Shown one piece after another: positions 1 to 38,559 of a stretch of 64,000 nucleotides of DNA. Location of the stretch: contig JAIYAT010000035.1 of the NCBI GenBank assembly GCA_027488905.1, positions 124,001 through 188,000 of the forward strand, read 5' to 3'. The translations under genes and the position numbers were made by a program. The notes under the pieces were generated by a model. That model had not been told where the DNA came from and did not search any database. It saw only the letters and a program-made list of their open reading frames with translations. Position 1 is the stretch's first letter. Every line of letters begins with the position of its first letter. This stretch comes from Bacteroidota bacterium. Lineage in GTDB: Bacteria > Bacteroidota > Bacteroidia > UKL13-3.

Positions 1-220
1 TTCCCACCATTTGTATAGTAGCTTCCCACCATTTGTATAGTAGCTTCCCACCATTTGTATAGTAGCTCCCCACCACTTGGGTAGTAGCTTCCCACCATTT
101 GTATAGTAGCTTCCCACCACTTGGGTAGTAGCTTCCCACCATTTGGGTAGTAGCTTCCCACCTCTTATAGAGTAGCTCCCCACCATTTGGGTAGTAGCTT
201 CCCACCATTTGGGTAGTAGC
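1..220. repeat. 22-bp intergenic tandem repeat array, about 10 copies, cut by window start
   Basis: Units TTCCCACCATTTGTATAGTAGC / TTCCCACCATTTGGGTAGTAGC in exact 22-bp register, no spacers. Confidence 0.97.
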
Positions 221-224
221 TTCT

Positions 225-1103: not shown

Positions 1104-1257
1104 TCTTACAAACCTTGTTGGCCTGATGGCTTAATTCTTTGCCAACCGCCAACCACCAACTGCTAAAAGCTAACTTCCAGCAGCCTTTTTTAAATGATAT
1201 TTTGATAACTTGTAAATATATTGCAAAGGAAAGCCCTGAATAATTTATCGTTTTAAA

Positions 1258-1857
1258 ATGACTTCTCCTTCAGTTTTTACTTCCTTAGATGCCTATGTTG
1301 CCAGGTGCATTTCGCTCTCCGAGGCAGACTTTGCTTACTTTCATGCTCAATTAATGGTTAAGCATTACAAAAAGAAAAGTCGATTACTTAGTGCAGGTGA
1401 AATTTGCTCCTTCGAAGGGTTTATTACCAAGGGTTGTTGTAGAGTTTACTATTTAAATGAAAAAGGAAACGAAGTTGATTTATATTTTGGAATAGAAGAG
1501 TGGTGGGTGAGCGACATGGCCAGTTTTACCCAACAGAAACCATCTAATTTATTTATTGAAACCTTAGAGGATACTGAGTTAATCATCATTAGTTATGAAG
1601 CAAAGGAGCGTTTATTCATTAGAATTCCGGCCTTCGAACGTATGTTTCGGTTAATGGTTCAACGTACCCATGAAACCCTCATGAAACGATTAATTTCTTC
1701 GTTCAGTGAACCTGCAGAAGAGCGTTACTTAAGCTTTGTCGCCAAATATCCTTCCATTGTTCAGCGTGTGCCTCAACACCTTATTGCAGCCTATTTAGGC
1801 ATTACCCCAGAGTTCCTATCGAAAATCAGGTCTAAGTTAAAGGCTAAAAATCTTTGA
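1258..1857 (+). CDS. Crp/Fnr family transcriptional regulator
   Basis: cNMP-binding-like N-terminus and C-terminal HTH (HLIAAYLGITPEFLSKIRSKL). Confidence 0.85.
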   Translation: MTSPSVFTSLDAYVARCISLSEADFAYFHAQLMVKHYKKKSRLLSAGEICSFEGFITKGCCRVYYLNEKGNEVDLYFGIEEWWVSDMASFTQQKPSNLFIETLEDTELIIISYEAKERLFIRIPAFERMFRLMVQRTHETLMKRLISSFSEPAEERYLSFVAKYPSIVQRVPQHLIAAYLGITPEFLSKIRSKLKAKNL

Positions 1858-1927
1858 TGTTTTTCTTAATCTATTTCAATGTTTAGGTTTTATTCTTGCT
1901 TTAATTTTGAACCAAATTTAAATCACC

Positions 1928-2647
1928 ATGAATACTATCATCCATAAAGCTGAAACTCGCGGAAAAGCAGATTTCGGTTGGTTAAAATCCTTTCACACTT
2001 TTAGTTTTGGTTCATACCATAACCCAGAAAGAGTGCATTTTGGCGCCTTAAGGGTTTTAAATGATGATACAGTTGCCGCAGCAATGGGTTTTGGCAAACA
2101 TCCGCATGACAATATGGAAATTATTTCTATTCCCTTAGAAGGCGATTTAGAGCACCAAGACTCTATGGGGAATACTGCTGTGATTAAGCAAGGCGACATT
2201 CAAGTGATGAGTGCTGGAACTGGAATTTTTCATAGCGAATACAATCGCAATAAGGATAAACAAACGAAGTTCCTTCAAATTTGGGTTTTTCCAAACCAAC
2301 GTAACGTTGAACCAAGATACGACCAAAAAACCTTAAACCTTTCAGAAAGGCAAAACAAGTTGCAACTTGTACTCTCGGGAGAACCATCTGCAGATGCTGT
2401 TTGGATTTACCAAGATGCAAGATTTTACTTAGGTAAATTCGATAAGGATTTTAATGCATTACATACCCTTAAAAGCAATAGCCATGGCGTTTATGCTTTT
2501 ATACTTTCAGGAGATTGGAACATCAATGGAAATATTTTAACTTCAAGAGATGGCATCGGAATATCCCAAACTTCAGAAATCTCTGTCACAGCCTTGTCGG
2601 ATCAAGCCGAAATCTTATTGATGGAATTACCTATGCTAAATGAATAA
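1928..2647 (+). CDS. Pirin family protein
   Basis: MNTIIHKAETRGKADFGWLKSFHTFSFGSYHNPERVHFGALRVLNDD, HPHDNMEIIS. Confidence 0.92.
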   Translation: MNTIIHKAETRGKADFGWLKSFHTFSFGSYHNPERVHFGALRVLNDDTVAAAMGFGKHPHDNMEIISIPLEGDLEHQDSMGNTAVIKQGDIQVMSAGTGIFHSEYNRNKDKQTKFLQIWVFPNQRNVEPRYDQKTLNLSERQNKLQLVLSGEPSADAVWIYQDARFYLGKFDKDFNALHTLKSNSHGVYAFILSGDWNINGNILTSRDGIGISQTSEISVTALSDQAEILLMELPMLNE

Positions 2648-2680
2648 ATTTCTTTAGATTGCCTAACTCTATTATAAGAA

Positions 2681-3247
2681 TTGATGCGCAAATTCATCTC
2701 AGAAGAAGATTTGATTCTGGTTTTAAATACCGGCACTGAGGCTGCATTTAATTTATTGTATAATAACTATTCAGCTTCAATCTTTGGATCAATTCTAAAG
2801 ATAGTTAACAATAGAGAATTAGCAGAAGACATTACCCAAGAGAGCTTTGTAAAAATTTGGAACAACTTTTCATCCTATGATTCCTCAAAGGGTAAACTGT
2901 ATACATGGATGCTTAATATTGCTAGAAATACAGCCATTGATGCACTCAAAAGCAAACAAGAACGAAACAGCCTTCAAAACCAAGATATAGAAAATTCCGT
3001 ATATGTAATTGATCAGCAATATCAAACTGATTTCAATACAGATGGTATTGGTTTGAAAAAGATTATTGAAGCATTGCCAAAAGACCAATTGGAAATTCTT
3101 CACAAAATGTATTTTGAAGGGTATACACAATCAGAAATTGCAAAAGATTTTGAAATCCCTTTAGGTACTGTCAAAACAAGAGCAAGACAAGCCATACAAA
3201 AGTTAAGAGGCGTATTTAATGAAAAACAGAAAGGAGGGATAAGTTGA
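2681..3247 (+). CDS. ECF-type RNA polymerase sigma factor (start may be 2684)
   Basis: Sigma region 2 (ITQESFVKIWNNFSSYD) and region 4 (GYTQSEIAKDFEIPLGTVKTRARQAIQKLR). Confidence 0.92.
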   Translation: MMRKFISEEDLILVLNTGTEAAFNLLYNNYSASIFGSILKIVNNRELAEDITQESFVKIWNNFSSYDSSKGKLYTWMLNIARNTAIDALKSKQERNSLQNQDIENSVYVIDQQYQTDFNTDGIGLKKIIEALPKDQLEILHKMYFEGYTQSEIAKDFEIPLGTVKTRARQAIQKLRGVFNEKQKGGIS

Positions 3248-4059
3248 ATTTAATAGAATTTAAAGAAAGTGGTTTGCTTGAATTATATGCATTGAATGCT
3301 TGTTCTCCAGAGGAAAAATTATTGGTTGAAAAAAACCTTGTTTTGTATCCAGAGTTATCCGTAGAATTAGATGAAATTAATGCAGCTTTAGAAAATTACT
3401 CTGAAATTTATTCGGAAATACCTCCAATTGGACTTGATCAAAAAATTAAAAAACAATTGGTTTTTAAACCAGAATTAAAGGTTTCCCCAAATGTTACTAT
3501 CAAGGAAGCCAATAAAAATAACTTAAATTTTTATAGGGTTTCATTAGCGGCAAGTCTTCTAGCTGTGTTAGGTTTAAGTATCCTTTTATTCTTTACACAA
3601 AATAGATTGAAGGAAACTGAAAATCAATTGGCAATTCTGAACCAAGAAAAAGTACTCCTGTCAGAAAATGTTAATCGCACCTCTTTAGAATTGACTAACT
3701 TGAGTCAAAGCTTTAAAAAGATTAGTACTGATGATTTTATTCAAGTTAAACTAACAGGAACAGAGAAGTTTCCTAATGCACAAATGAAGGTTTTTTGGAA
3801 CAAAGCGTCCAAAGAGACTTTTATTAGTCTTGTACAAATACCAAATTTACCTTTAGGAAAACAATTTCAATTGTGGGCATTGGTAGATGGGAAGCCAATT
3901 AATGCAGGCGTATTTGATAGTCTTCAAGGAATCTTAATTCTTAGCGATATTGCTACCACTCAAGCCGACCTTTTTGCAGTTACAATTGAAGATAAAGGCG
4001 GAAGTGTCAGTCCAACCCTTAGCGAAATGGTGGTTGCAGGAAAAGTCATAGGCTCGTAA
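3244..4059 (+). CDS. Anti-sigma factor, RskA-like C-terminal domain
   Basis: Overlaps sigma gene by 4 bp; central TM; FQLWALVDGKPINAGVFD typical of anti-sigma-K. Confidence 0.85.
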   Translation: MNLIEFKESGLLELYALNACSPEEKLLVEKNLVLYPELSVELDEINAALENYSEIYSEIPPIGLDQKIKKQLVFKPELKVSPNVTIKEANKNNLNFYRVSLAASLLAVLGLSILLFFTQNRLKETENQLAILNQEKVLLSENVNRTSLELTNLSQSFKKISTDDFIQVKLTGTEKFPNAQMKVFWNKASKETFISLVQIPNLPLGKQFQLWALVDGKPINAGVFDSLQGILILSDIATTQADLFAVTIEDKGGSVSPTLSEMVVAGKVIGS

Positions 4060-4131
4060 TTTTTTTTACAGGATTTAAATCCACCCTTTTTATTTTCTCG
4101 TATATGTGTTTGTAATCAATTTATAAAACAC

Positions 4132-4560
4132 ATGAAAAATCAAAATCTTAAAAGAACATTACGATTCACGCTTATTTTATTTGTTGGTCTTTTAGCTTCT
4201 TTAGCCATTCATTTATTTCTTATCCATAAAGCTAAGGAAAATCAAAAAGTTTTTGCAATGGGCAGGATTGATTTTAAGACCCAAACTGCGCAAGAAAATT
4301 TAACAGGAATTAGAGAATATACCGCATCTATAAATGGGATCAGCAATGCCATTTATAATTCTCAAGAGCGCGTATTGGTGTTTATTTATGAACCAAAAAT
4401 TGTAGATGCAGAAATGGTTTTAAATAAGGTTAAAAATCATTCTAAAGCGCTAGCCACTAGATACATTTCTTCTGAAACTGAGCTCAAATCTGGTTGTCCA
4501 GTTGACCTAAATAAATTTTCCTTTTTAGGAAAAGCACTTTCATTTTTAAGTTCTAATTAA
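4132..4560 (+). CDS. Membrane-anchored hypothetical protein, possible HMA-like fold
   Basis: N-terminal TM followed by short alpha/beta domain; no CxxC. Confidence 0.5.
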   Translation: MKNQNLKRTLRFTLILFVGLLASLAIHLFLIHKAKENQKVFAMGRIDFKTQTAQENLTGIREYTASINGISNAIYNSQERVLVFIYEPKIVDAEMVLNKVKNHSKALATRYISSETELKSGCPVDLNKFSFLGKALSFLSSN

Positions 4561-4583
4561 TCTCTAAACTAAATAAAAACAAC

Positions 4584-5159
4584 ATGAAAAAAACAACACT
4601 CGCTTTTACCGCAGCATTTTTAATGCTATTAGGCATCTCTTGTCAAAAAGATGAAACGAAAATTGAGCCACAACAAACACCTGCTTCTCTTTATACTAGA
4701 GTAGGAGGTAGCACAATGGTTGCAGATCCAAACAATCCTTCTACCATGATTGAGAAAGGAAGGTTAACCCTTCGTGCCGTGGTTGATAGTTCTATCTTAA
4801 TTATTGCCGCAGATACTCAAATGACAAAATTTTTCCCTACTTTGTTTATGGAATTGGGTTCAGGAAATACCAATGGATTAGCTGCTTTGAGCAAAAACTT
4901 TACAGACTTTATGTGTGCTGCTACTGGTTGCAAAAATGCTAGTTATGCCTACATGGGATTAAATATGAAGGATGCTCATAATCCAGCTAAACACAGCCGT
5001 ATGGGGGTAAAAGCTACATCTGCTGATTTTGATAAGTTTGTAGGACATATTGGATCTGGGTTAGCTAAAAATGGCGTAACTTCAGCTAACAACAAACAAT
5101 TGGTTGATGATTTAGTAGCTTTATTATACACAACTAAAGCCGATATCGTTCAGCAATAA
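4584..5159 (+). CDS. Lipoprotein with group-1 truncated-globin-like domain
   Basis: Lipobox LLGISC; LYTRVGG...FFPTLF...MKDAHNPAKHSRMGV resembles TrHb1 distal and proximal helices. Confidence 0.7.
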   Translation: MKKTTLAFTAAFLMLLGISCQKDETKIEPQQTPASLYTRVGGSTMVADPNNPSTMIEKGRLTLRAVVDSSILIIAADTQMTKFFPTLFMELGSGNTNGLAALSKNFTDFMCAATGCKNASYAYMGLNMKDAHNPAKHSRMGVKATSADFDKFVGHIGSGLAKNGVTSANNKQLVDDLVALLYTTKADIVQQ

Positions 5160-5178
5160 TTACAAACTAACTAACTAG

Positions 5179-5252
5179 CAGGTTTCATTGCATTTTTGGT
5201 TGATATATACTAATTATAGTTTATGCTCCAATATGCAGTGAAACCTGTTTTT
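5179..5252 (+). terminator. Long-loop terminator-like hairpin after globin gene
   Basis: CAGGTTTCATTGCAT / ATGCAGTGAAACCTG arms (1 mismatch), then TTTTTG. Confidence 0.6.
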
Positions 5253-5268
5253 GTTAAAACTTGCTATT

Positions 5269-5907
5269 ATCTGTTAAATAGAATTCTCATACCCTTATTG
5301 TTTTCATCAAATTTCCCCTCTTTGTAAACTACATTTCCATTTACTAAGGTATGGGTACAACCACTGAGTCAAATTGCGCTCCTTCAAAAGGGCTCCAGCC
5401 ACATTTATATAAAATATTACTTTTAGAAACCGTGTATTTTTGGTTCAAATCTACCAATACTAAATCTGCAAAAAAGCCTTCTTTAATAAATCCTCTGCGG
5501 CCTATTTTAAACAATATTGCTGGGTTGTGACAAGCTTTTTCAACAATTTTTTCTAGGCTAATTTTTCCTTTCTTGTAAAGTTGCAATAAGGCATTTAGGG
5601 TGTGTTGAACCAAAGGTCCGCCCGAAGGTGCTTTTAAATAGCTTTGCGACTTTTCTTCCAACGTATGCGGCGCATGGTCGGTTGCTAGCACATCAATTCT
5701 CCCATCAATTACTGCCTTTAAAATTTCTTCTCTATCATTTGCAGTTCTTACTGCAGGATTCCATTTTATAAAATTTCCTTTCTCAGCATAGTCTGCATCA
5801 CTAAACCACAAATGGTGTGTACAAGCTTCTGCAGTATTGCGTTTTTGAACTAGGGGAATGTCATTTCTAAATAAGTCTAGTTCTTTGGCTGTACTAATGT
5901 GCAAGAT
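5269..5907 (-). pseudogene. Truncated, frameshifted second copy of the 3' half of pyrC
   Basis: High identity to 6597-7229; lacks the N-terminal half; extra 2 nt (GGGTACAACCACTG versus GGGTAACCACTG) shifts the C-terminus. Confidence 0.93.
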
Positions 5908-6120
5908 TTTACTTAGGTAAATTCGATATAGATTTTAATGCAATACATACCCTTAAAAGCAATAGCCATGGCGTTTATGCTTTTATACTTTCAGGAGATT
6001 GGAACATCAATGGAAATATTTTAGCTTCCAGAGATGGCATCGGAATATCCCAAACTTCAGAAATCTCTGTCACAGCCTTGTCGGATCAAGCCGAAATATT
6101 ATTGATGGAATTACCTATGC
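5900..6120 (+). pseudogene. Duplicated 3' end of the pirin gene
   Basis: Nearly identical to 2416-2636 with only a few substitutions. Confidence 0.95.
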
Positions 6121-6128
6121 AGGCTTAA

Positions 6129-6587
6129 TTATTTGTAGTCTACGCCAATTCCTTCATAAATAAAGTGCATTAACCAAGCTGGGCCAATCAATAAAAACTG
6201 AAGGTCTTTTAAAAAGGAAGGTTTTTTACCTTCTATTTTATGACCCCAAAATTGGCCAATCCAAGCTACTACAAATACTATGAGGGATATTTCTACCACG
6301 GGGAAATAATTCTCATATAAATAACGAGCAACTAAATGGCAGAAAAAGGCAAAACCTATTGTTCCAATGGCAAGTTTCCAAGATAGTCTAATATAAAAGA
6401 TGCTTGCCAGTAAAATAACCGGCGTTGCTAAATGGAATGACACACCACTCAGGGTTAATTTTACGGTGTATAACAAGCCAATGATGCTAAAAAATATGCT
6501 AGGAACACATATCCAATGCACCAATTTATTGGTTGGGTTTTGGTGACTTTCGCCATATTCCTCAAACCAAGTATCTATACTTTTCAT
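6129..6587 (-). CDS. DUF962/Mpo1-like membrane protein
   Basis: WFEEYGESHQNPTNKLVHWICVPSIFFSIIGLLY, multiple TM helices. Confidence 0.85.
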   Translation of the reverse strand: MKSIDTWFEEYGESHQNPTNKLVHWICVPSIFFSIIGLLYTVKLTLSGVSFHLATPVILLASIFYIRLSWKLAIGTIGFAFFCHLVARYLYENYFPVVEISLIVFVVAWIGQFWGHKIEGKKPSFLKDLQFLLIGPAWLMHFIYEGIGVDYK

Positions 6588-6590
6588 TTG

Positions 6591-7928
6591 TTATCTGTTA
6601 AATGTTAATCGCATTCCTTTGGCAGTTTCATCAAATTTACCCGCTTGGTAAACTACATTTCCATTAACTAAGGTATGGGTAACCACTGAGTCAAATTGCA
6701 CTCCTTCAAAAGGGCTCCAGCCACATTTATATAAAATATTACTTTTAGAAACGGTGTATTTTTGGTTCAAATCTACCAATACTAAATCTGCAAAAAAGCC
6801 TTCTTTAATAAATCCTCTGCGGTCTATTTCAAATAGAATCGCTGGGTTATGACAAGCTTTTTCAACAATTTTTTCAATACTTATTTTTCCACCCTTGTAT
6901 AGTTGCAACAAGGCATTTAGGGTGTGTTGAACCAAAGGTCCGCCCGAAGGCGCTTTTAAATAGCTTTGCGACTTTTCTTCCAAGGTATGCGGCGCATGGT
7001 CGGTTGCCAGCACATCAATTCTCCCATCAATTACTGCCTTTAAAATTTCTTCCCTATCCTTTGAAGATTTTACTGCAGGATTCCATTTTATAAAATTCCC
7101 TTTCTCAGCATAATCTTCCTCGCTAAACCAAAGATGGTGCGTGCAAGCTTCAGCAGTTATGCGTTTTTGAACCAAGGGAATATCATTTCTAAATAAGTCT
7201 AGTTCTTTGGCTGTACTAATGTGCAAGATATGTAGGCGCGTATTGTATTTTTTAGCCAAGTCAACTGCAAAGCTAGACGACTTATAACAGGCTTCTTCAT
7301 TTCTAATTTTAGGGTGCCAACTCGCGTCAATAGCATCGCCATTGGCCGCAATTACCGAAGCTTGATTGGCTTTTACCATTGGGTCGTCTTCGCAATGTGT
7401 GGCAATAATTGTTTTTACTTCTTTAAATATTCTTTCTAAAGCCAAAGGGTCATCCACCAGCATATCGCCCGTACTTGAGCCCATAAAAATCTTTACGCCA
7501 CAGATTTTAGTTTCATCCACTTTAAGAAGTTCCTCAATATTATGGTTAGTAGTACCCATAAAGAAACTATAATTTGCTAAACTAACTTCCGCTGCGCGGG
7601 CATATTTCTGTTCTAACAATTCAATGGTTACGGCACTAGGAGAGGTGTTTGGCATTTCCATAAAAGAGGTAACCCCACCAGCAACTGCAGCTTTTGGCTC
7701 AGTATACAAATCTCCTTTATAGGTTAAACCAGGTTCTCTAAAATGCACTTGGTCGTCTATTAAACCAGGAATTAATATTTTTCCGCTGGCGTCAATCACT
7801 TGGTCGGCAGGCATATTTATCCCTTGCTTTTCAATTTTTTCAATAAAAGCACCTTTTATAAATACATCAGCATGAAATTGTTCACCCTCATTAATCAAGA
7901 GTGCATTTTTAATAAGTATTGTTTTCAT
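6591..7928 (-). CDS. pyrC: Dihydroorotase
   Basis: [44 protein letters not shown]. Confidence 0.95.
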   Translation of the reverse strand: MKTILIKNALLINEGEQFHADVFIKGAFIEKIEKQGINMPADQVIDASGKILIPGLIDDQVHFREPGLTYKGDLYTEPKAAVAGGVTSFMEMPNTSPSAVTIELLEQKYARAAEVSLANYSFFMGTTNHNIEELLKVDETKICGVKIFMGSSTGDMLVDDPLALERIFKEVKTIIATHCEDDPMVKANQASVIAANGDAIDASWHPKIRNEEACYKSSSFAVDLAKKYNTRLHILHISTAKELDLFRNDIPLVQKRITAEACTHHLWFSEEDYAEKGNFIKWNPAVKSSKDREEILKAVIDGRIDVLATDHAPHTLEEKSQSYLKAPSGGPLVQHTLNALLQLYKGGKISIEKIVEKACHNPAILFEIDRRGFIKEGFFADLVLVDLNQKYTVSKSNILYKCGWSPFEGVQFDSVVTHTLVNGNVVYQAGKFDETAKGMRLTFNR

Positions 7929-7987
7929 TTACTGCGAACTTAATAAATATTGTTTCAAACTGTACATTTGTGCCTAAACTACAAACA

Positions 7988-8869
7988 TTGAATTTATCAC
8001 CAAAGGCCATTGGATGGCTTGCATTCTGGGCTGTTTCCATTTTTTGGGGTACAACCTTTCTTGCTATCAAAATAGGGATATCAACTTTTCCTCCTTTTGC
8101 CATGGCTGCGTTTAGGCATACCTCGGCAGGAATTATCTTGATTTCTTATTTTTTAATCAAAGGGCATAAAATACCTAACTTAAAAGCCTTACGCACCTTT
8201 TCATTAAATGGATTGTTAATGCTGGCAGGCGGAAATGGCATCATAAGTTGGGCCATGCAATACGTTGGCAGCGGGTTAACTGCCTTAATCTGTGCTTTAA
8301 CGCCCGTTTGGATTGTGCTCATCAATAGAATTACTGGAGATAAAACACATATTTCTTGGTTGGTGATTTTGGGTTTTGTGATTTGTCTTATCGGGCAAGT
8401 TTTATTTTTTAAAGATAAAGTTTCATACTTCGACGACCCAATGTACGCTTGGGGAATTGCTGCTGTAGTACTTTCCAATATTTTATGGGCAATGGGAACC
8501 GTGTATTCAAAAAACCATGTTACCAATGTTCCTCCGCTATTTGCAGCCGGTTTGCAAATGATTCCAGGAGGTTTATTATTATTTGTTGTAGCTGCTTTAC
8601 GAGGTGAGTTAACCGACTTAAACCCAGCTCCACAAGCTATTAATGCATTGATTTACTTGGTTCTATTTGGTTCATTACTCGCCTATAGCGCTTATATGTA
8701 TGTGATTAAAAATTTGCCAGCCACCATTGTTTCTACTTATGCGTATATAAATACTCTGGTTGCCATTGTACTTGGTTGGTTCTGGTTAGGCGAATCCTTA
8801 GATGTTAACACCTTAATTGCCGCAGCGTTTACAATTGGTGGCGTAATTTTGGTGAGTAAAAACGGGTAG
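7988..8869 (+). CDS. EamA/DMT-family transporter (ORF open from 7919)
   Basis: WAVSIFWGTTFLAIKIGISTFPPF and ten-TM EamA pattern. Confidence 0.88.
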   Translation: MNLSPKAIGWLAFWAVSIFWGTTFLAIKIGISTFPPFAMAAFRHTSAGIILISYFLIKGHKIPNLKALRTFSLNGLLMLAGGNGIISWAMQYVGSGLTALICALTPVWIVLINRITGDKTHISWLVILGFVICLIGQVLFFKDKVSYFDDPMYAWGIAAVVLSNILWAMGTVYSKNHVTNVPPLFAAGLQMIPGGLLLFVVAALRGELTDLNPAPQAINALIYLVLFGSLLAYSAYMYVIKNLPATIVSTYAYINTLVAIVLGWFWLGESLDVNTLIAAAFTIGGVILVSKNG

Positions 8870-8903
8870 TTTGGTTTGAACCCAATTTTCTGTAACTTCT
8901 TAT

Positions 8904-9284
8904 ATGAATACAGAAACACCCAATAATAACAAGCTCACTGGTCAAAAAGGAGAGGAGTTGGCCACTAATTTTTTAGAAAAAAAGGGATACAAAATCCTTG
9001 ATACGAATTTTGTTTCAGGTAAGTATGAAATAGATTTAATCTGCGAGTTTCAAAACAAACTAGTATTTGTTGAAGTCAAAACAAGACACAACGCCAAAAT
9101 AGAACCAGAGTTTGCTGTGAATAGAAGTAAACAACAACACATTGCCAGAGCTGCCGAAGGCTATATGCGGTTAAAAAAGCTCAACCAAGAAATCAGGTTT
9201 GATATCATTGCCATCAACCATGGAAATGGGCAAACAGAAATTATTCATTTTGAAGATGCCTTTTACCCCATTTATTATAAGTAG
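8904..9284 (+). CDS. YraN/UPF0102 family endonuclease-like protein
   Basis: GQKGEELATNFLEKKGYKILDTNF...EIDLICEFQNKLVFVEVKTR. Confidence 0.92.
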   Translation: MNTETPNNNKLTGQKGEELATNFLEKKGYKILDTNFVSGKYEIDLICEFQNKLVFVEVKTRHNAKIEPEFAVNRSKQQHIARAAEGYMRLKKLNQEIRFDIIAINHGNGQTEIIHFEDAFYPIYYK

Positions 9285-9290
9285 GTAAAA

Positions 9291-10655
9291 TTGGGCTTTT
9301 TAGAATTATCCTATATTTGCTCGATGATATTAAGTGTAACTGCTTCTTTGCCCCCTAATTGGTTGGTCATACCTTTTGTTTCTTTGCTATTGATGATTGC
9401 AACAGGCCCTGTTTTTTTTCCTCACTTTTGGCATCATCATTATAAAAAACTGAGTATTCTTATTGGAGCTACAGTTGGGTTGTATTATGTTTTTATGCTT
9501 CAAAATACTATTTTACCCTTAGAAACAATAGCAGAATACTTATCATTTATTAGCTTACTCACGCTTTTGTATGTTGCAAGTGGTGGTATTTATATATTTC
9601 TAGACATAGAATCAAAGGCTATTTCTAATATTATCTTTCTTCTTATTGCAGCCATTTTAACTAATTTAATTGGAACTACAGGCGCATCGGTGCTACTCAT
9701 TAGGCCATTTATGCGGTTAAACAGATACCGATTAAAGCCTTACCATATTGTATTTTTTATATTTATTGTTTCTAATGTGGGTGGCTCACTTACCCCAATT
9801 GGCGACCCACCGCTATTTATGGGCTTTTTAAAGGGCGTTCCTTTTCAATGGACCTTAACGCATCTTTGGAAACCTTGGTTGGTTGCCATTTTTAGCCTTT
9901 TAGGGATTTTTTATTATTTCGAGCGTAAAAACAAAGAATTAGATGAGGTGGATAGCAATGTTGAGTATAGCAATCGCATAATCATCACTGGCAAACGGAA
10001 CTTTTTTTGGCTTTTGGTAGCAGTTGCATCTGTTTTTCTTGACCCCAATATTTTTGATTTTATTCCAGCCATTGAGTTTCATGGTAAGAAAATATCTTTT
10101 GTTAGAGAAATCATTCAATTATTAGCCGCATTTTTAAGCTTCAGCTTTGCAAATACCAAAGCAATTAAAAGTAATGAATTTGATTTTGAACCTATCAAAG
10201 AGGTGGCCTTTCTTTTTGTTGGAATCTTCTTGAGTATGATGCCTGCCTTGCAACTGCTAGAAGCATTTGCACATGGAGCAGGCAGCAGCATGGTGCTCAA
10301 TGATTCTATCGTTTATTGGAGCAGCGGTATTTTTAGCAGTGTGCTAGATAATGCGCCAACCTATTTAAATGTAATGACTTTAATTTTATCTAAAGCCGGA
10401 CTAAGCATCAACGAAATTGCAGATGTAAAGGCCTTTGTAGCAGGCGAGAATTTTAGTCAATTAATGGCACTTTCTACTGGTGCAGTTTTCTTTGGTGCAA
10501 TGACTTATATAGGAAATGGACCAAACTTTATGGTGAAAGCAATTGCCGAACAAAATGGTGTTAAAATGCCAGATTTTGGCAAGTATATCCTTAAATATAG
10601 CCTACCCATTTTACTGCCAGTTTTATTTCTTGTTTGGATACTCTTCTTTATTTAA
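9291..10655 (+). CDS. Sodium:proton antiporter, NhaD/citrate-transporter-like
   Basis: LLIRPFMRLNRYR, NVGGSLTPIGDPPLFMGFLKGVPF, YIGNGPNFMVKAIAE. Confidence 0.85.
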   Translation: MGFLELSYICSMILSVTASLPPNWLVIPFVSLLLMIATGPVFFPHFWHHHYKKLSILIGATVGLYYVFMLQNTILPLETIAEYLSFISLLTLLYVASGGIYIFLDIESKAISNIIFLLIAAILTNLIGTTGASVLLIRPFMRLNRYRLKPYHIVFFIFIVSNVGGSLTPIGDPPLFMGFLKGVPFQWTLTHLWKPWLVAIFSLLGIFYYFERKNKELDEVDSNVEYSNRIIITGKRNFFWLLVAVASVFLDPNIFDFIPAIEFHGKKISFVREIIQLLAAFLSFSFANTKAIKSNEFDFEPIKEVAFLFVGIFLSMMPALQLLEAFAHGAGSSMVLNDSIVYWSSGIFSSVLDNAPTYLNVMTLILSKAGLSINEIADVKAFVAGENFSQLMALSTGAVFFGAMTYIGNGPNFMVKAIAEQNGVKMPDFGKYILKYSLPILLPVLFLVWILFFI

Positions 10656-10671
10656 TTTATTTTGCGTCAAT

Positions 10672-11412
10672 ATGCTAAACGGAAAAAAGATAATTGTTGT
10701 ATTACCAGCTTATAATGCAGCTAGAACCTTGGAAAAAACTTACGCAGAGATTCCAATGGAAATTGTAGACGAGGTAATTTTAGTGGATGATGCTAGCCGG
10801 GATGAAACTTCAGATCTTGCCAAAAGTATTGGAATTCAACATGTGATTAGGCATGAGAATAACAAAGGTTATGGTGGCAATCAAAAGACATGTTATAACA
10901 AAGCCCTTGAACTTAAAGGAGATATTGTAATTATGTTACATCCAGATTACCAATATACACCAAAACTTATTTTAGCCATGAGTAGCATCATTGCAAATGA
11001 AGTTTATCCTGTGGTGTTTGGTTCAAGAATTCTAGGTAAAGGCGCCCTAAAAGGTGGAATGCCTATTTATAAATACATTTTTAACAGAATGCTAACCTTG
11101 TTCCAAAACATTTTAATGGGACAAAAACTATCTGAATACCACACAGGTTATAGAGCTTTTGATGCCAATGTGCTTAAGGCAGTAAATTTTGATAAATGCA
11201 GTGATGATTTCGTTTTTGACAATGAAATAACTGCACAAATCTGTTTAAAAGGTTATGAAATAGCAGAAGTAACTTGTCCAACTAAATACTTTCCAGAAGC
11301 TTCTTCTATTAACTTTAAACGCAGTTCAATCTATGGACTAGGCGTGCTAAGAACGAGTATTATGTTTAGGTTGCAGAAGATGGGAATAGTTAATTTTAAA
11401 CTATTCTCCTAA
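10672..11412 (+). CDS. Glycosyltransferase family 2
   Basis: VVLPAYNAARTLEKTYAEIP...VILVDDASRDET; in-frame ATG at 10672. Confidence 0.9.
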   Translation: MLNGKKIIVVLPAYNAARTLEKTYAEIPMEIVDEVILVDDASRDETSDLAKSIGIQHVIRHENNKGYGGNQKTCYNKALELKGDIVIMLHPDYQYTPKLILAMSSIIANEVYPVVFGSRILGKGALKGGMPIYKYIFNRMLTLFQNILMGQKLSEYHTGYRAFDANVLKAVNFDKCSDDFVFDNEITAQICLKGYEIAEVTCPTKYFPEASSINFKRSSIYGLGVLRTSIMFRLQKMGIVNFKLFS

Positions 11413-11964
11413 GGCGTTTTTTAGCTGTACCGTTACAGAAGTTTTGTCCCAATGGAAATTTAAGGCAATTGAATTATTTGAATCAATTGGCGTTAAAAGG
11501 ATCTCAAATTGCTCTTTAATGGGCGCATCATTAATTGCTTCCACCTCTGTTCTCAAAACATCTTTTGATTTATCTGCTTCTTGTGCACCCCAACGGTCCC
11601 AATCGCTATTCACACATATTGTCCAAACTTTTTCTCCTGGATAAGCATATAAAGAATATTTGCCTGCTTCTAACTTTTTATCATTAAAGTAAATAGGAGA
11701 GTTTGTTTCAAAAACGGTTGCCTCATTTGCCCCTAAACGCCAATATTCTCCGTATGGTTGCAAGGCTTCTGTTGCTTTATCTCCAAATATAATTCTGCCC
11801 TTTGCTGAGGGACGACAATAATCAATCTTAATTTTTAATGGACCTTCTGCATATTCAGCTGTTGCTGATGGGCTGTGTTTTTTTGTGTCTTTTTTGAACC
11901 AATTGAAAAAAATAACAATAACAACAACAAATATGGCTGCGATAATAAGCGCTCTTTTTAACAT
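11401..11964 (-). CDS. DUF2911 domain protein
   Basis: YCRPSAKGRIIFG...YGEYWRLGANEATVFETNSPIYFNDKKLEAGKYSLYAYPG. Confidence 0.85.
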   Translation of the reverse strand: MLKRALIIAAIFVVVIVIFFNWFKKDTKKHSPSATAEYAEGPLKIKIDYCRPSAKGRIIFGDKATEALQPYGEYWRLGANEATVFETNSPIYFNDKKLEAGKYSLYAYPGEKVWTICVNSDWDRWGAQEADKSKDVLRTEVEAINDAPIKEQFEILLTPIDSNNSIALNFHWDKTSVTVQLKNALGE

Positions 11965-12007
11965 AGGTATTAAACTTTATTCAAATCTAAATATTTATAA
12001 ATCAGAG

Positions 12008-12715
12008 TCAAATAGAATCAATTTTTTTGACAAATTCTAACTCTTTAACAGTTAAGTTTTCAAAAACACCAGATTTTAAGTCTTTAAGTTCTAATTCTCC
12101 AATACTTGTTCTAATAAGTTTGGTTACATAATTACCTGCTTCAAAGCACATCCTCCGTATTTGTTTGTTCCGTCCTTCTTGTAATTTTACTTCTATAGCA
12201 TGGCTGTTAATTTCCCTCACCTTTGCCGGTAATGTTTGATATCCATTAAGCAAAATGCCTTGCTCAAAAATCCTAATAAGTGTATCATTTACTTCACTTT
12301 CTAGACAAACCAAATATGTTTTCCAAACCGATTTTCCTGGTCTTGTAATCTTGTTTAAAAACTTACCATCATCTGTTAAAATCAAAAGTCCCTCAGATGC
12401 TTTGTCTAGCCTTCCGCAAATTTGTAAGCCCTTTAAAGCATCGGGTAGGTTCAAACCTAAAGCATCTTTATCGTCTAATCGCATGCTGCATTCTATACCC
12501 AAAGGCTTATAATATTTAACATACTTATAGCTTTTTGAGGACTGAATTACTTGGCCTTTATAAATAACTTCATCCGTTTCTAATACCACACAGTTTGTTT
12601 CTGTATGTTGACCATTTAAAAGTACTTCCCCATTCTCTATAGCTAATTTTGCTTGCTTATGGCTTAGTGCGACTTTTTTTACAAGTAGGTTTTGAAGCTT
12701 GTTTCTAAAACTCAA
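12008..12715 (-). CDS. Pseudouridine synthase, RsuA/RluB/RluF type
   Basis: S4-like N-terminus, GRLDKASEGLLILTDDG, EGRNKQIRRMCFEAG. Confidence 0.92.
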   Translation of the reverse strand: MSFRNKLQNLLVKKVALSHKQAKLAIENGEVLLNGQHTETNCVVLETDEVIYKGQVIQSSKSYKYVKYYKPLGIECSMRLDDKDALGLNLPDALKGLQICGRLDKASEGLLILTDDGKFLNKITRPGKSVWKTYLVCLESEVNDTLIRIFEQGILLNGYQTLPAKVREINSHAIEVKLQEGRNKQIRRMCFEAGNYVTKLIRTSIGELELKDLKSGVFENLTVKELEFVKKIDSI

Positions 12716-13761
12716 TGTTCTTCGTTATAATAGATTTTATAAAACTTTCTGCCGTCAGACTCTATGCCTTTTTCAATCATATTCTTATTGCCATGTATAT
12801 AAATATGAAAGTTTTTGTCGAGTTTCAAAATGCTCTTAAAAACCTTTGCCTGTTTTTTTACTGCCTGCTCAGAAATGTCAAATCCGTCTTTAAGTTCTAT
12901 TTCATATTCGGTTTGAACCGAATTTTTATAATCTTTAAAAGAAGTCACTAAGCCTTCATTTCCTTCAAAAACTTGTTCTGTGAACAAATGCTCATTAAAG
13001 GTTTCGTTTTCCTTAAAAAAAGCTACGGAACGATTCAATAAATCAATTTGGTCTGTTCTGCTTACCTCAAACTCTTTCGGAACTTGTTTGGTTAAAAAGT
13101 CTTTGGTTACATGTAAGAAGTTTTGCGTTAAATGGTAAGCATCCGAGCAAGGTTTAATCTTTAAATAGAGGTCTTTCCAATAAGCCGCTTCGCTACTTTT
13201 ATTGGTTTTATCCGTTACACAAACTCGAAAACCTTTTTCTTCCTCTACATTTATTATCAAACAGCCTTTGTCTAATTTATCAATTGCAATGCCGCTCTCC
13301 ACTGCTAAGTCATAGTCCTGACCAATTCTGCTAACCTTCAAAAAATGGTCTTTTGTTTCTGCTTTAAAAATGCCAATGGCTTGAACCAAGTTGCCTTGAT
13401 ACTGCATACCATCGAAACTACAAACATAAAAATCGCCTGCCAAAATGTTGGGATGAATTGCAATTTCATATAAGTGCTTAGCCAAATGAATGCTTTGAAT
13501 ATGAAAGGAATCAGGGCGTTCAAACAAATCTTTGGCATAATTAAATACTGGATTTAAAGCGTGATCATCATTGCTAAAACTTAGGTGGTAATATTCTTGC
13601 GTTTGAAAAGGCTTTAAAAAATAAGAGAGAAGATGTGCTTCTAAATCCTCGTCTAATGCGGCAACTGACTGTTTAGAAAGCAACAATGGTTCGCCATTTT
13701 GCTTATTCCCTGTTTGGTGAACAGATAAATGTTTAATTGAACAAAGAGAAAAATCTAACAT
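12712..13761 (-). CDS. Nucleoid-associated protein, NdpA/YejK-like
   Basis: Family-like layout; 4-bp overlap with the pseudouridine synthase gene. Confidence 0.75.
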   Translation of the reverse strand: MLDFSLCSIKHLSVHQTGNKQNGEPLLLSKQSVAALDEDLEAHLLSYFLKPFQTQEYYHLSFSNDDHALNPVFNYAKDLFERPDSFHIQSIHLAKHLYEIAIHPNILAGDFYVCSFDGMQYQGNLVQAIGIFKAETKDHFLKVSRIGQDYDLAVESGIAIDKLDKGCLIINVEEEKGFRVCVTDKTNKSSEAAYWKDLYLKIKPCSDAYHLTQNFLHVTKDFLTKQVPKEFEVSRTDQIDLLNRSVAFFKENETFNEHLFTEQVFEGNEGLVTSFKDYKNSVQTEYEIELKDGFDISEQAVKKQAKVFKSILKLDKNFHIYIHGNKNMIEKGIESDGRKFYKIYYNEEH

Positions 13762-30303: not shown

Positions 30304-31215
30304 TTATTCCCTAGACAAACTATACACTACACCCAAAGATAGAATTTGAGAAAACTGAGTATTTTTATCTTGGTCAGGGTCTTTAATAACATTTATTTGC
30401 AAGTTTGTACTGATATATTTTGTTGCTTTCAATGTTAAGTTAGCATTGAAAATATGGACCATTGCCATATCCATTCCAACGCCTGATTCAGTAGCTTTGA
30501 TATAATCTAAGTTACTCATGTATCTCAGTTTTAGATTTATATTTTGAGCAAGGTTTTTATCAAAATTGGCAATAAATTGAAGAACCGCTTGGTTTCTTAA
30601 CTTATCACCAGGTTTTTTTAAACCATAAAGTCCAGCATTAGATATTCTTTCATCTAAAACAAAAGTTTGTCTTAAAGTTCCAACCCCAAAACGCATCCAA
30701 AGGTAATCTATTGGCTTGTATTCAAAACCTAAAGAAGAGGTTAAATAGGCAGGAGCAAAAAGCGAAGATATTAAGGAATCTTGACTAGGCTCAACCGCAC
30801 TTTTTGTTTTATGGTCGTATCCTTCAATAAATTGAGATAGGAAATTCATTGAAGCAAAGAAGTTCCACTTATTGTTTATGATATAACCGGCTTTGAAATC
30901 ATAAAAAAGTCTATCTGCATTTTTCCTTCTACCCTCATTTTGAATTTCCTGAAAACCCAATTGAACTTGAAAGTCTGAGGTAAAGTCCCACTTTTTACCT
31001 TTGTATTTAGCAACATAATTGGTAAAGCCACCAAATGCATAACTATTGAAACCTCCGCTTGTCCAATTGTCACTAAATGTTGACTGATTTAGGTTGAACC
31101 CAGCTTGAAAATTATGCTTTACTTTTCTTGGTTTAGGCGTTAAGGTTGAGTCTACTTGTGCAAATGTGGTGGAAACTAGAATCAAAAGAAAGGTGGTAAG
31201 TAGTAATTTTTTCAT
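30304..31215 (-). CDS. DUF3078-like outer membrane protein
   Basis: Signal peptide; GFNLNQSTFSDNWTSGG. Confidence 0.8.
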   Translation of the reverse strand: MKKLLLTTFLLILVSTTFAQVDSTLTPKPRKVKHNFQAGFNLNQSTFSDNWTSGGFNSYAFGGFTNYVAKYKGKKWDFTSDFQVQLGFQEIQNEGRRKNADRLFYDFKAGYIINNKWNFFASMNFLSQFIEGYDHKTKSAVEPSQDSLISSLFAPAYLTSSLGFEYKPIDYLWMRFGVGTLRQTFVLDERISNAGLYGLKKPGDKLRNQAVLQFIANFDKNLAQNINLKLRYMSNLDYIKATESGVGMDMAMVHIFNANLTLKATKYISTNLQINVIKDPDQDKNTQFSQILSLGVVYSLSRE

Positions 31216-36000: not shown

Positions 36001-36100
36001 GCTCGGCAACCATGTCTTTAGGTCGGCAACCATGTCTAAAGGTCGGCAACCATGTCTAAAGGTCGGCAACCATGTCTTTAGGTCGGCAACAAGGTATTAA
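36001..36100. repeat. 20-bp intergenic tandem repeat, 5 copies
   Basis: GGTCGGCAACCATGTC(TTTA/TAAA) units in exact 20-bp register; last copy degenerate. Confidence 0.96.
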
Positions 36101-36243
36101 TTCGGAATAATGGTTGTCGATTCGCTTCAAATCCTTTGATTTGGCAATTTTGATTTAGTTTTTGTAACCTTTAATCAAGTTAATTGAAGTTGGAATTTTA
36201 GCTAAAATTTTGGAATACGTTAATTAGTTATGAAATTGCCCAC

Positions 36244-38559
36244 ATGAAGATTTTAAAAGTATTACTAATTTTTTGTGTTGGGTTTGGTTTGATCCAACAT
36301 CAGTTATATGCCCAAAATACTGTAAACATAATTCCAAAACCTTCTGATTTAGTTGATTTTGGGGTTAAAAATGTTTTTCAAATTAACAAAAACACCAAAT
36401 TGATTTATAAGGGAGCTAATGATTCTTTAATGAGAAGCATTTCTGTTTTTAAATCGAATATTGAAGCCATAAGCGGCATCAAACTAAAAAAGGGAAAAGC
36501 AAAACATAATTATATTTATGTAAATATTACTGCACTAACTGCAAGCAAACATCCAGAGGCTTATCGTTTAGCAATTGATTCAAATGGAATTAATATTGAA
36601 GCCAACACTACCATTGGAATCTTTTATGGATTTCAAACTATACTTCAATTATTACCTGCATCCAAAAGTAATAGCTTATTAGAATTACCCAAAATTAGCC
36701 TTGTTGATTACCCTAGATTTTCTTGGCGTGGCATGCATCTAGACGTAGTGAGACATTTCTTTACAGTAGGGCAAGTGAAGCAATATTTAGACTTAATGGC
36801 AATGTATAAAATGAATACTTTTCATTGGCATTTAACAGACGACCAAGGTTGGCGCATTGAAATTAAGAAGTATCCTAAACTTACTGAAACAGGAGCTTGG
36901 AGAGTAGATAGGAGGGCATGGCATTTTAATGATAGGCCAACAGCCCAACTAGGAGAAGTTGCAAATTATGGTGGTTATTATACCCAAGAGCAAGTAAAAG
37001 AAATAGTTGCATATGCCGCAGCAAGAATGATAACCGTAGTACCTGAAATTGAATTACCTGGACATAGTGCTGCGGCCATAGCTGCTTATCCTTTTCTTAG
37101 TTGCAAAGGAGAAATGCAATTACCTTTAACAGGTGGTGATTACTTAGGTAAGTCCTCAAATTATTGTGCAGGCAAGGAAGAAACATTTAGTTTTTTAACT
37201 GATGTTATTTCAGAGGTGATGCCTTTATTTCCTTCCAAGTATTTTCATATAGGAGGAGATGAGGTAGAAAAGGAACCTTGGAAAGAATGTGCGGCTTGTC
37301 AGAAAAGAATCAAAGATGAGCAATTGAAAGATGAGTTAGAATTACAAAGTTATTTTGTAAAGCGAATAGGTAAGTTTATAAAAGCTAATGGTAAGAAAAT
37401 GATAGGATGGGATGAAATCCTAGAGGGAGGATTAGCAAGTGATGCAGTTGTAATGAGTTGGCGCGGAGAAAGCGGCGGCGTAGCCGCCGCCAAACAGCAA
37501 CACGAAGTAATTATGACGCCAGGTGTTCCTTGTTATTTTGACCATTACCAAGCCGACCCAGAAACAGAGCCAAAAGCCATTGGAGGTTTTAACTCTCTTA
37601 AACGCGTGTATGATTATGAACCTATTCCTGCCGAATTAGGTGATTCCTTAAGTCATTTTGTATTGGGAGCCCAAGCCAATGTTTGGACAGAATACATGCC
37701 TAGCTTTAATCATGTGATGTATATGATATTGCCAAGAATGCCTGCAATGGCCGAGGTGTTGTGGTCGCCAAAGTCCAAGCGAAATTGGTTGGAATTTTAT
37801 CCGAGAATTGAAGCACATCAAATGAGGTTTGCAGAAATGGGACTCAATTATTGCAAAGGAAATTTTAAAGTAGACATTCAAACATTTGTGCATCAAAATA
37901 AATTGAAAGCAATACTTAAATCAGAAATTCCAAACGCGAATATTATTTATAGTTTAACTGGCAAAACAACCAATTCTCCTTATAAAGATACTATATCAAT
38001 TGATTCTAGTGGTACTATAAAGGCATGGCTTTACAGAAACAAACATCAATTAAGCATATTGCCAAGTGAACAAAAGTATGTTTTGCACAAGGCAATTGGT
38101 TCAAAAATAACCTATGATAAACCTGTGAGTAAAATCTATCCAGCAGAAGGTGAAAGCACCTTGGTAAATGGCATCTTTGGACCATTGGCAACTCGCAGCA
38201 GCTGGCATTCAATCAATAAATCTGATCTATCGCTAACCATGGAGCTTCCTCAGGTTACTGATGTTAATAGCATTTATATCAACTTTCTTCACTTCTATAA
38301 GGCTTGGGTATTTGCACCACAGCAAGTGGAGTTTTCTTATTCTTTAGATGGCATCAAATGGTCGGATGTTATTATCACTGTAAACCAAACACCAATGGTA
38401 GAGACCAATCCTATAACCCAACAATTTGGTATAACATTAAAAGCAGTCAAGGCAAAGTTTATTAAGATTAAAGCAAAGAACATAGGGATTTGTCCTCCTG
38501 GGCATCCCGGAGAAGGCCAAGGAGCATGGTTGTTTGCGGATGAAATTGTCGTGGAATAA
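36244..38559 (+). CDS. Glycoside hydrolase family 20 beta-N-acetylhexosaminidase
   Basis: SWRGMHLDVVRHFF, FHWHLTDDQGWRIEIKKYP, FHIGGDEVEKEPW; F5/8-like C-terminus. Confidence 0.95.
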   Translation: MKILKVLLIFCVGFGLIQHQLYAQNTVNIIPKPSDLVDFGVKNVFQINKNTKLIYKGANDSLMRSISVFKSNIEAISGIKLKKGKAKHNYIYVNITALTASKHPEAYRLAIDSNGINIEANTTIGIFYGFQTILQLLPASKSNSLLELPKISLVDYPRFSWRGMHLDVVRHFFTVGQVKQYLDLMAMYKMNTFHWHLTDDQGWRIEIKKYPKLTETGAWRVDRRAWHFNDRPTAQLGEVANYGGYYTQEQVKEIVAYAAARMITVVPEIELPGHSAAAIAAYPFLSCKGEMQLPLTGGDYLGKSSNYCAGKEETFSFLTDVISEVMPLFPSKYFHIGGDEVEKEPWKECAACQKRIKDEQLKDELELQSYFVKRIGKFIKANGKKMIGWDEILEGGLASDAVVMSWRGESGGVAAAKQQHEVIMTPGVPCYFDHYQADPETEPKAIGGFNSLKRVYDYEPIPAELGDSLSHFVLGAQANVWTEYMPSFNHVMYMILPRMPAMAEVLWSPKSKRNWLEFYPRIEAHQMRFAEMGLNYCKGNFKVDIQTFVHQNKLKAILKSEIPNANIIYSLTGKTTNSPYKDTISIDSSGTIKAWLYRNKHQLSILPSEQKYVLHKAIGSKITYDKPVSKIYPAEGESTLVNGIFGPLATRSSWHSINKSDLSLTMELPQVTDVNSIYINFLHFYKAWVFAPQQVEFSYSLDGIKWSDVIITVNQTPMVETNPITQQFGITLKAVKAKFIKIKAKNIGICPPGHPGEGQGAWLFADEIVVE

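Follow-up and report, generated by a model that had tools for sequence, protein, structure and literature searches.

The chimeric sequence at positions 5267-6120 of the analysed window (a stretch of 64,000 nucleotides, C32:124001-188000) probably marks the seam at which the pirin-pyrC locus of one lineage of the genus was joined in tandem to an alternative allele from another lineage. This reading follows from the order of the sequence, as a G009-type block is succeeded by a G005-type block and the edges of the blocks match the respective sister genome. The first allele block (2637-5907, G009 type) comprises the pirin tail, the genes for an ECF sigma factor and an RskA-like anti-sigma factor, the ORF at 4132, a lipoprotein gene and pyrC', a 3' half of the dihydroorotase gene. 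The second block (5900-7928, G005 type) comprises pirin', a 3' end of the pirin gene, together with an Mpo1-like (DUF962) gene and the intact pyrC. The argument on allele structure takes in three genomes, namely the genome of the window (G000), G009 as the closest genome compared, and G005. The first-pass annotation had described the chimera as a pseudogene fused at a microhomology. Its lack of function and the microhomology fusion were borne out, but it is not an isolated pseudogene: it appears as the seam of two locus alleles that are seen singly in G009 and G005.

In pairwise alignments, pyrC' (5267-5907, minus strand) matched the 3' half of pyrC (6591-7229) with 582 of 639 positions identical (91.1%), and a 2-bp insertion (CA) near 5357 in the chimera came on top of this count. 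pirin' (5900-6120, plus strand) matched the pirin 3' end (2416-2636) with 215 of 221 identical positions (97.3%). The coordinates first given for both copies were thus right to within a few bases, and the pirin part is indeed the less diverged one, as had been judged by eye. The two parts overlap in the seam itself (5900-5907), an 8-bp microhomology with the sequence TGCAAGAT that is common to pyrC (7222-7229) and pirin (2416-2423). Within the first 14 kb of the window, this 8-mer was found at three sites only, 2416, 5900 and 7222. At least 8 shared bases occurred at random pyrC/pirin junctions with P=0.00024 (200,000 random joins); therefore, the microhomology is real and no chance match. The 16 bases 5' of the 8-mer matched at 11 positions, the top value among the 23 words of at least 8 bases shared by pyrC and pirin, so that the joint sits in a partial similarity of ~24 bp (19/24). 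The geometry at the joint is head-to-tail, with pyrC 7229 meeting pirin 2416 in the same orientation. The run of pyrC' into pirin' is what would be expected of a tandem junction of a pirin...pyrC locus and not of a random fusion. No further copies of pyrC or pirin were detected at the nucleotide level in the same genome beyond those in the window, and the pyrC'/pirin' junction was found in none of the other genomes when 19 genomes of the genus were examined. A scan against genome contigs returned distant named Bacteroidota only (best protein identity 77%) and no strain of the same species. The number of sites in a promoter scan around the seam was not above that of shuffled sequences.

The intact copies flank the chimera. 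The intact pirin-family gene (1928-2647, plus strand, 239 aa) was assigned by Pfam Pirin and Pirin_C_2 and by alignment of its end with G009 and G005. The intact pyrC (6591-7928, minus strand) encodes a dihydroorotase of 445 aa that scored 703 bits against NCBIfam NF006688 (cut-off 535), and its closest solved structure is PDB 2gwn. Between pirin' and pyrC lies the Mpo1-like / DUF962 gene (6129-6587, minus strand, 152 aa, Pfam PF06127). HxH is the motif at the corresponding place in many dihydroorotases. The intact pyrC carries DDQVH there, as does 2gwn, a solved relative from the Bacteroidota, and DDQVH therefore appears to be a lineage feature.

Neither of the two fragments is a functional gene, since both are truncated at the 5' end and pyrC' has the 2-bp frameshift in addition. 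pyrC' has no 5' half and pirin' is devoid of its first 488 nt, and both thus lack an essential part, as is characteristic of pseudogenes. The 186-aa ORF at 5344-5904, which the first reading had advised against annotating as a functional dihydroorotase, covered only positions 235-415 of the 444 positions of NF006688. It reached 289 bits against the cut-off of 535, and the 2-bp insertion shifts its 29 C-terminal codons out of frame. The earlier impression that many pyrC differences are conservative was roughly right, with a dN/dS of 0.13 between the in-frame part of pyrC' and the intact pyrC. On the pyrC' branch, the ratio of nonsynonymous to synonymous changes was 11:12 compared to 12:19 and 4:20 on the two branches of intact copies; this excess runs in the direction expected of relaxed selection and was not significant (Fisher p=0.13).

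Comparison with the sister genomes revealed both allele structures. G009 has the order crp-pirin-sigma-antisigma-4132-lipoprotein-pyrC-EamA without the seam, and no Mpo1-like (DUF962) gene was found anywhere in its genome. G005 has the order crp-pirin-Mpo1-like-pyrC-EamA, and a homologue of the lipoprotein is located on another contig. All genes are present in G013 (pirin-sigma-antisigma-4132-lipoprotein-Mpo1-like-pyrC), while the order is pirin-Mpo1-like-pyrC in G008 and G011, and pirin adjoins pyrC in G010 and G012. The Mpo1-like gene occurs in seven of the 19 genomes of the genus, the window's genome counted. Given these differing gene orders, the pirin-pyrC interval is a locus of variable content in the genus. 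In blastn comparisons, the window was collinear and unbroken with contig C26 of G009 from 1187 to 5907, and collinear with G005 from 5884 to 10790. Two genes of the first block deserve a separate remark. The lipoprotein gene (4584-5156, plus strand), which follows the ECF sigma/anti-sigma pair, matched no Pfam family above the cut-off. Its product showed a weak match over residues 97-189 to the truncated haemoglobin PDB 1dlw (E=3.3e-4) and may be a haem-binding lipoprotein. The ORF at 4132-4557 (plus strand, 142 aa) in the same operon looks membrane-anchored and is kept in G009 and G013; it matched no Pfam family at a threshold as lax as E=5.

The edges of the blocks assign each side to one of the two sisters. 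The end of pirin', which reads ...PMQA before the stop codon as in G005, and the adjoining intergenic DNA match G005, and so do the boundary between pirin' and the Mpo1-like gene and the 3' end of the intact pyrC. The last codons of the intact pirin (from ~2637) and the DNA downstream match G009. The same holds for the 3' end of pyrC' (its last ~90 nt) and for the intergenic DNA between pyrC' and the lipoprotein gene, where G009 has no Mpo1-like gene in between. For the last 29 pyrC codons, dS was 0.13 between pyrC' and G009 and 0.60 between pyrC' and the intact pyrC. The proposal that the pyrC part came from the allele of a related strain fits the sister genomes. The switch from pirin'-like to G009-like sequence lies at ~2637 and raised dS continues to ~13.8 kb; a unique crossover point is not defined.

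Had both parts arisen by a single duplication, they should differ from their source genes to a proportionate degree. With the G000/G009 divergence as the yardstick, the copies differed by 0.18 for pirin'/pirin and by 0.98 for pyrC'/pyrC (Fisher p=1.4e-4). Consequently, either pyrC' already belonged to another allele at the time of the joining, or the two pirin copies were homogenised later. pyrC' is a mosaic in which G009-like sites alternate with sites like those of the intact pyrC (runs test p=0.004), and this patchiness indicates that some conversion has occurred. As conversion between pirin and pirin' is possible and pyrC' is already mosaic, the argument from unequal ages is not watertight.

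A tandem duplication followed by gene losses was considered as an alternative and rejected, since both the comparison with the sisters and the unequal divergence of the two parts spoke against it. It would have taken place within one genome, from inside pirin to inside pyrC at the 8-bp microhomology, whereupon copy 1 would have lost the Mpo1-like gene and copy 2 the sigma-lipoprotein block. The passage of the pyrC 3' part into the pirin 3' part has exactly the head-to-tail geometry of such a duplication, and a full ancestral order is plausible as G013 has all genes in one order. Nevertheless, equal divergence of all parts, which a tandem duplication in one genome would predict, was not observed (0.18 vs 0.98, values that conversion could distort). 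Moreover, G009 already shares the lipoprotein-pyrC boundary that lacks the Mpo1-like gene, and G005 already shares the pirin-Mpo1-like boundary that lacks the block, so that both supposedly later deletions must have happened before those alleles diverged. The age of the seam would then have to equal that of the split from G005 (~78% nucleotide identity). Unless the pirin copies were converted, their 97.3% identity contradicts such an age. Overall, an origin by duplication within one genome is considered unlikely.

A reversed order of stacking is regarded as less probable still. Here, a G005-type locus would have been resident and the sigma-lipoprotein-pyrC' block inserted into it, with duplication of a ~220 bp target in pirin (2416-2636). 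A single insertion would suffice, with the left switch at the pirin end and the right switch at the microhomology, and the likeness of the two pirin 3' ends would be accounted for directly. However, the block is as near to G009 as the backbone is and the flanks are more distant, although resident flanks should resemble the backbone unless those of G009 were replaced. It is very improbable that the seam is an assembly artefact joining the haplotypes of two strains, even though its two sides do look like two haplotypes and the genome consists of 40 contigs. An overlap of 8 bp is much shorter than any word size used in assembly, and no assembler would join sequences on it. In addition, pirin' and pyrC' have private substitutions and a private 2-bp insertion that are absent from the intact copies, the seam lies inside a long contig, and the estimated contamination is 0.27%. 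A misassembly at 5900-5907, named initially as the finding that would overturn the chimera, is thus unlikely.

If the chimera is the seam of two stacked alleles, synonymous divergence favours the Mpo1-like/pyrC side as the incoming block. The backbone right of the locus is ~94-95% identical to G009 with a median dS of 0.174 (27 genes), and the genes of the sigma-lipoprotein block are backbone-like with dS values of 0.17-0.25. To the left, dS to G009 was 1.42 for crp and 0.75 for pirin. The genes from pyrC to 13.8 kb had a median dS of 0.369, which differed from the backbone for this set of genes picked after inspection of the data (Mann-Whitney p=0.005). As dS to G009 is raised across 6591-13761, the second block, taken as foreign DNA, may reach to ~13.8 kb. 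More tentatively, the simplest reading would be that the sigma-lipoprotein block is resident and that the crp-pirin and Mpo1-like/pyrC parts are incoming. The opposite preference, with the sigma-lipoprotein block as the foreign insert, was reversed once the backbone also proved to be ~94-95% identical to G009; the direction is still tentative, and replaced flanks in G009 would yield the same dS picture as incoming flanks in the window's genome. Elsewhere in the contig, the gene at 30304-31215 (minus strand) has a dS of 2.18 to G009 amid a backbone of ~0.17, which suggests another tract of inter-lineage exchange. In view of such other high-dS tracts, exchange between lineages seems to be common here. 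Two tandem arrays were observed as well: a 22-nt unit (consensus TTCCCACCATTTGGATAGTAGC) repeated ~10 times at the left edge of the window (1-223) and a 20-nt unit present in 4.4 copies with 94% matches at 36003-36090. The latter array adjoins a stretch in which identity to G009 is low (79.8% at 36001-36500).

In the favoured scenario, DNA of another lineage of the genus would have entered the cell and recombined homologously on one side, either near the pirin 3' end or right of pyrC. The other side would have been joined at TGCAAGAT, the microhomology between pyrC and pirin. The locus would thereby have been lengthened rather than replaced, with the gene sets of the two alleles retained, and the outcome would be a small, stable merodiploid in which two genes are partly duplicated. 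The truncated pyrC' and pirin' would be by-products of this joining, altered afterwards by decay or partial conversion. A classical one-sided event usually deletes recipient DNA, and the extension seen here counts against the model of stacked alleles. ComEC is present in the genome but uninformative on transformation specifically, because the family is nearly universal (found in 10 of 14 controls). Judging from the geometry, recombination between pyrC' and pyrC would excise pirin' together with the Mpo1-like gene and yield the gene order of G009, while recombination between pirin and pirin' would excise the sigma-lipoprotein block and yield that of G005. In principle, the sister structures could have arisen by such resolution, but in view of the divergence data this is unlikely for G009 and G005.

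Among the closest known processes is homology-facilitated illegitimate recombination (HFIR), which has been described in naturally competent bacteria and E. coli and generally leaves a deletion about as large as the insert (PMC3240628). Incoming DNA is likewise joined by homology on one side and by a short chance match on the other, and an illegitimate joint with a short identity is present at 5900-5907 (8 bp). In contrast to HFIR products, there is no recipient loss of insert-like size: both allele contents are present, the locus is extended and the target stretch occurs twice; the present case is also known from its sequence alone. In Vibrio cholerae, HFIR-like displacement has been put forward to explain how orphan immunity genes became stacked at T6SS loci (PMC5361080). 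There too, alternative contents of one locus adjoin with truncated remnants between them, but the genes here are housekeeping and regulatory ones instead of effector-immunity modules, and there is no evident sign that selection has favoured their retention. In Streptococcus pneumoniae, merodiploids arise by transformation as duplications of 100-900 kb between long repeats (PMC3784515). They share the tandem arrangement and hybrid junction resulting from recombination with incoming DNA, whereas the case described here involves ~4 kb and an 8-bp junction.

The seam thus adds a further case to a known kind of recombination and represents no new mechanism; its trace is unusually clear. It provides sequence evidence for how one genome can keep two versions of a locus side by side where each of its sisters has a single one, and it accounts for an odd pair of fragments that automatic annotation may label as dihydroorotase. 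It is a speculative idea, and one held with little confidence, that the joining of alleles from other lineages at microhomologies is a recurrent route by which the genus adds genes without loss of resident ones, with truncated gene ends as its signature. If so, the Bacteroidota would have in this seam a clear example from nature. Genome searches for truncated 3'-end/3'-end seams would gauge how often exchange adds genes rather than swaps them.
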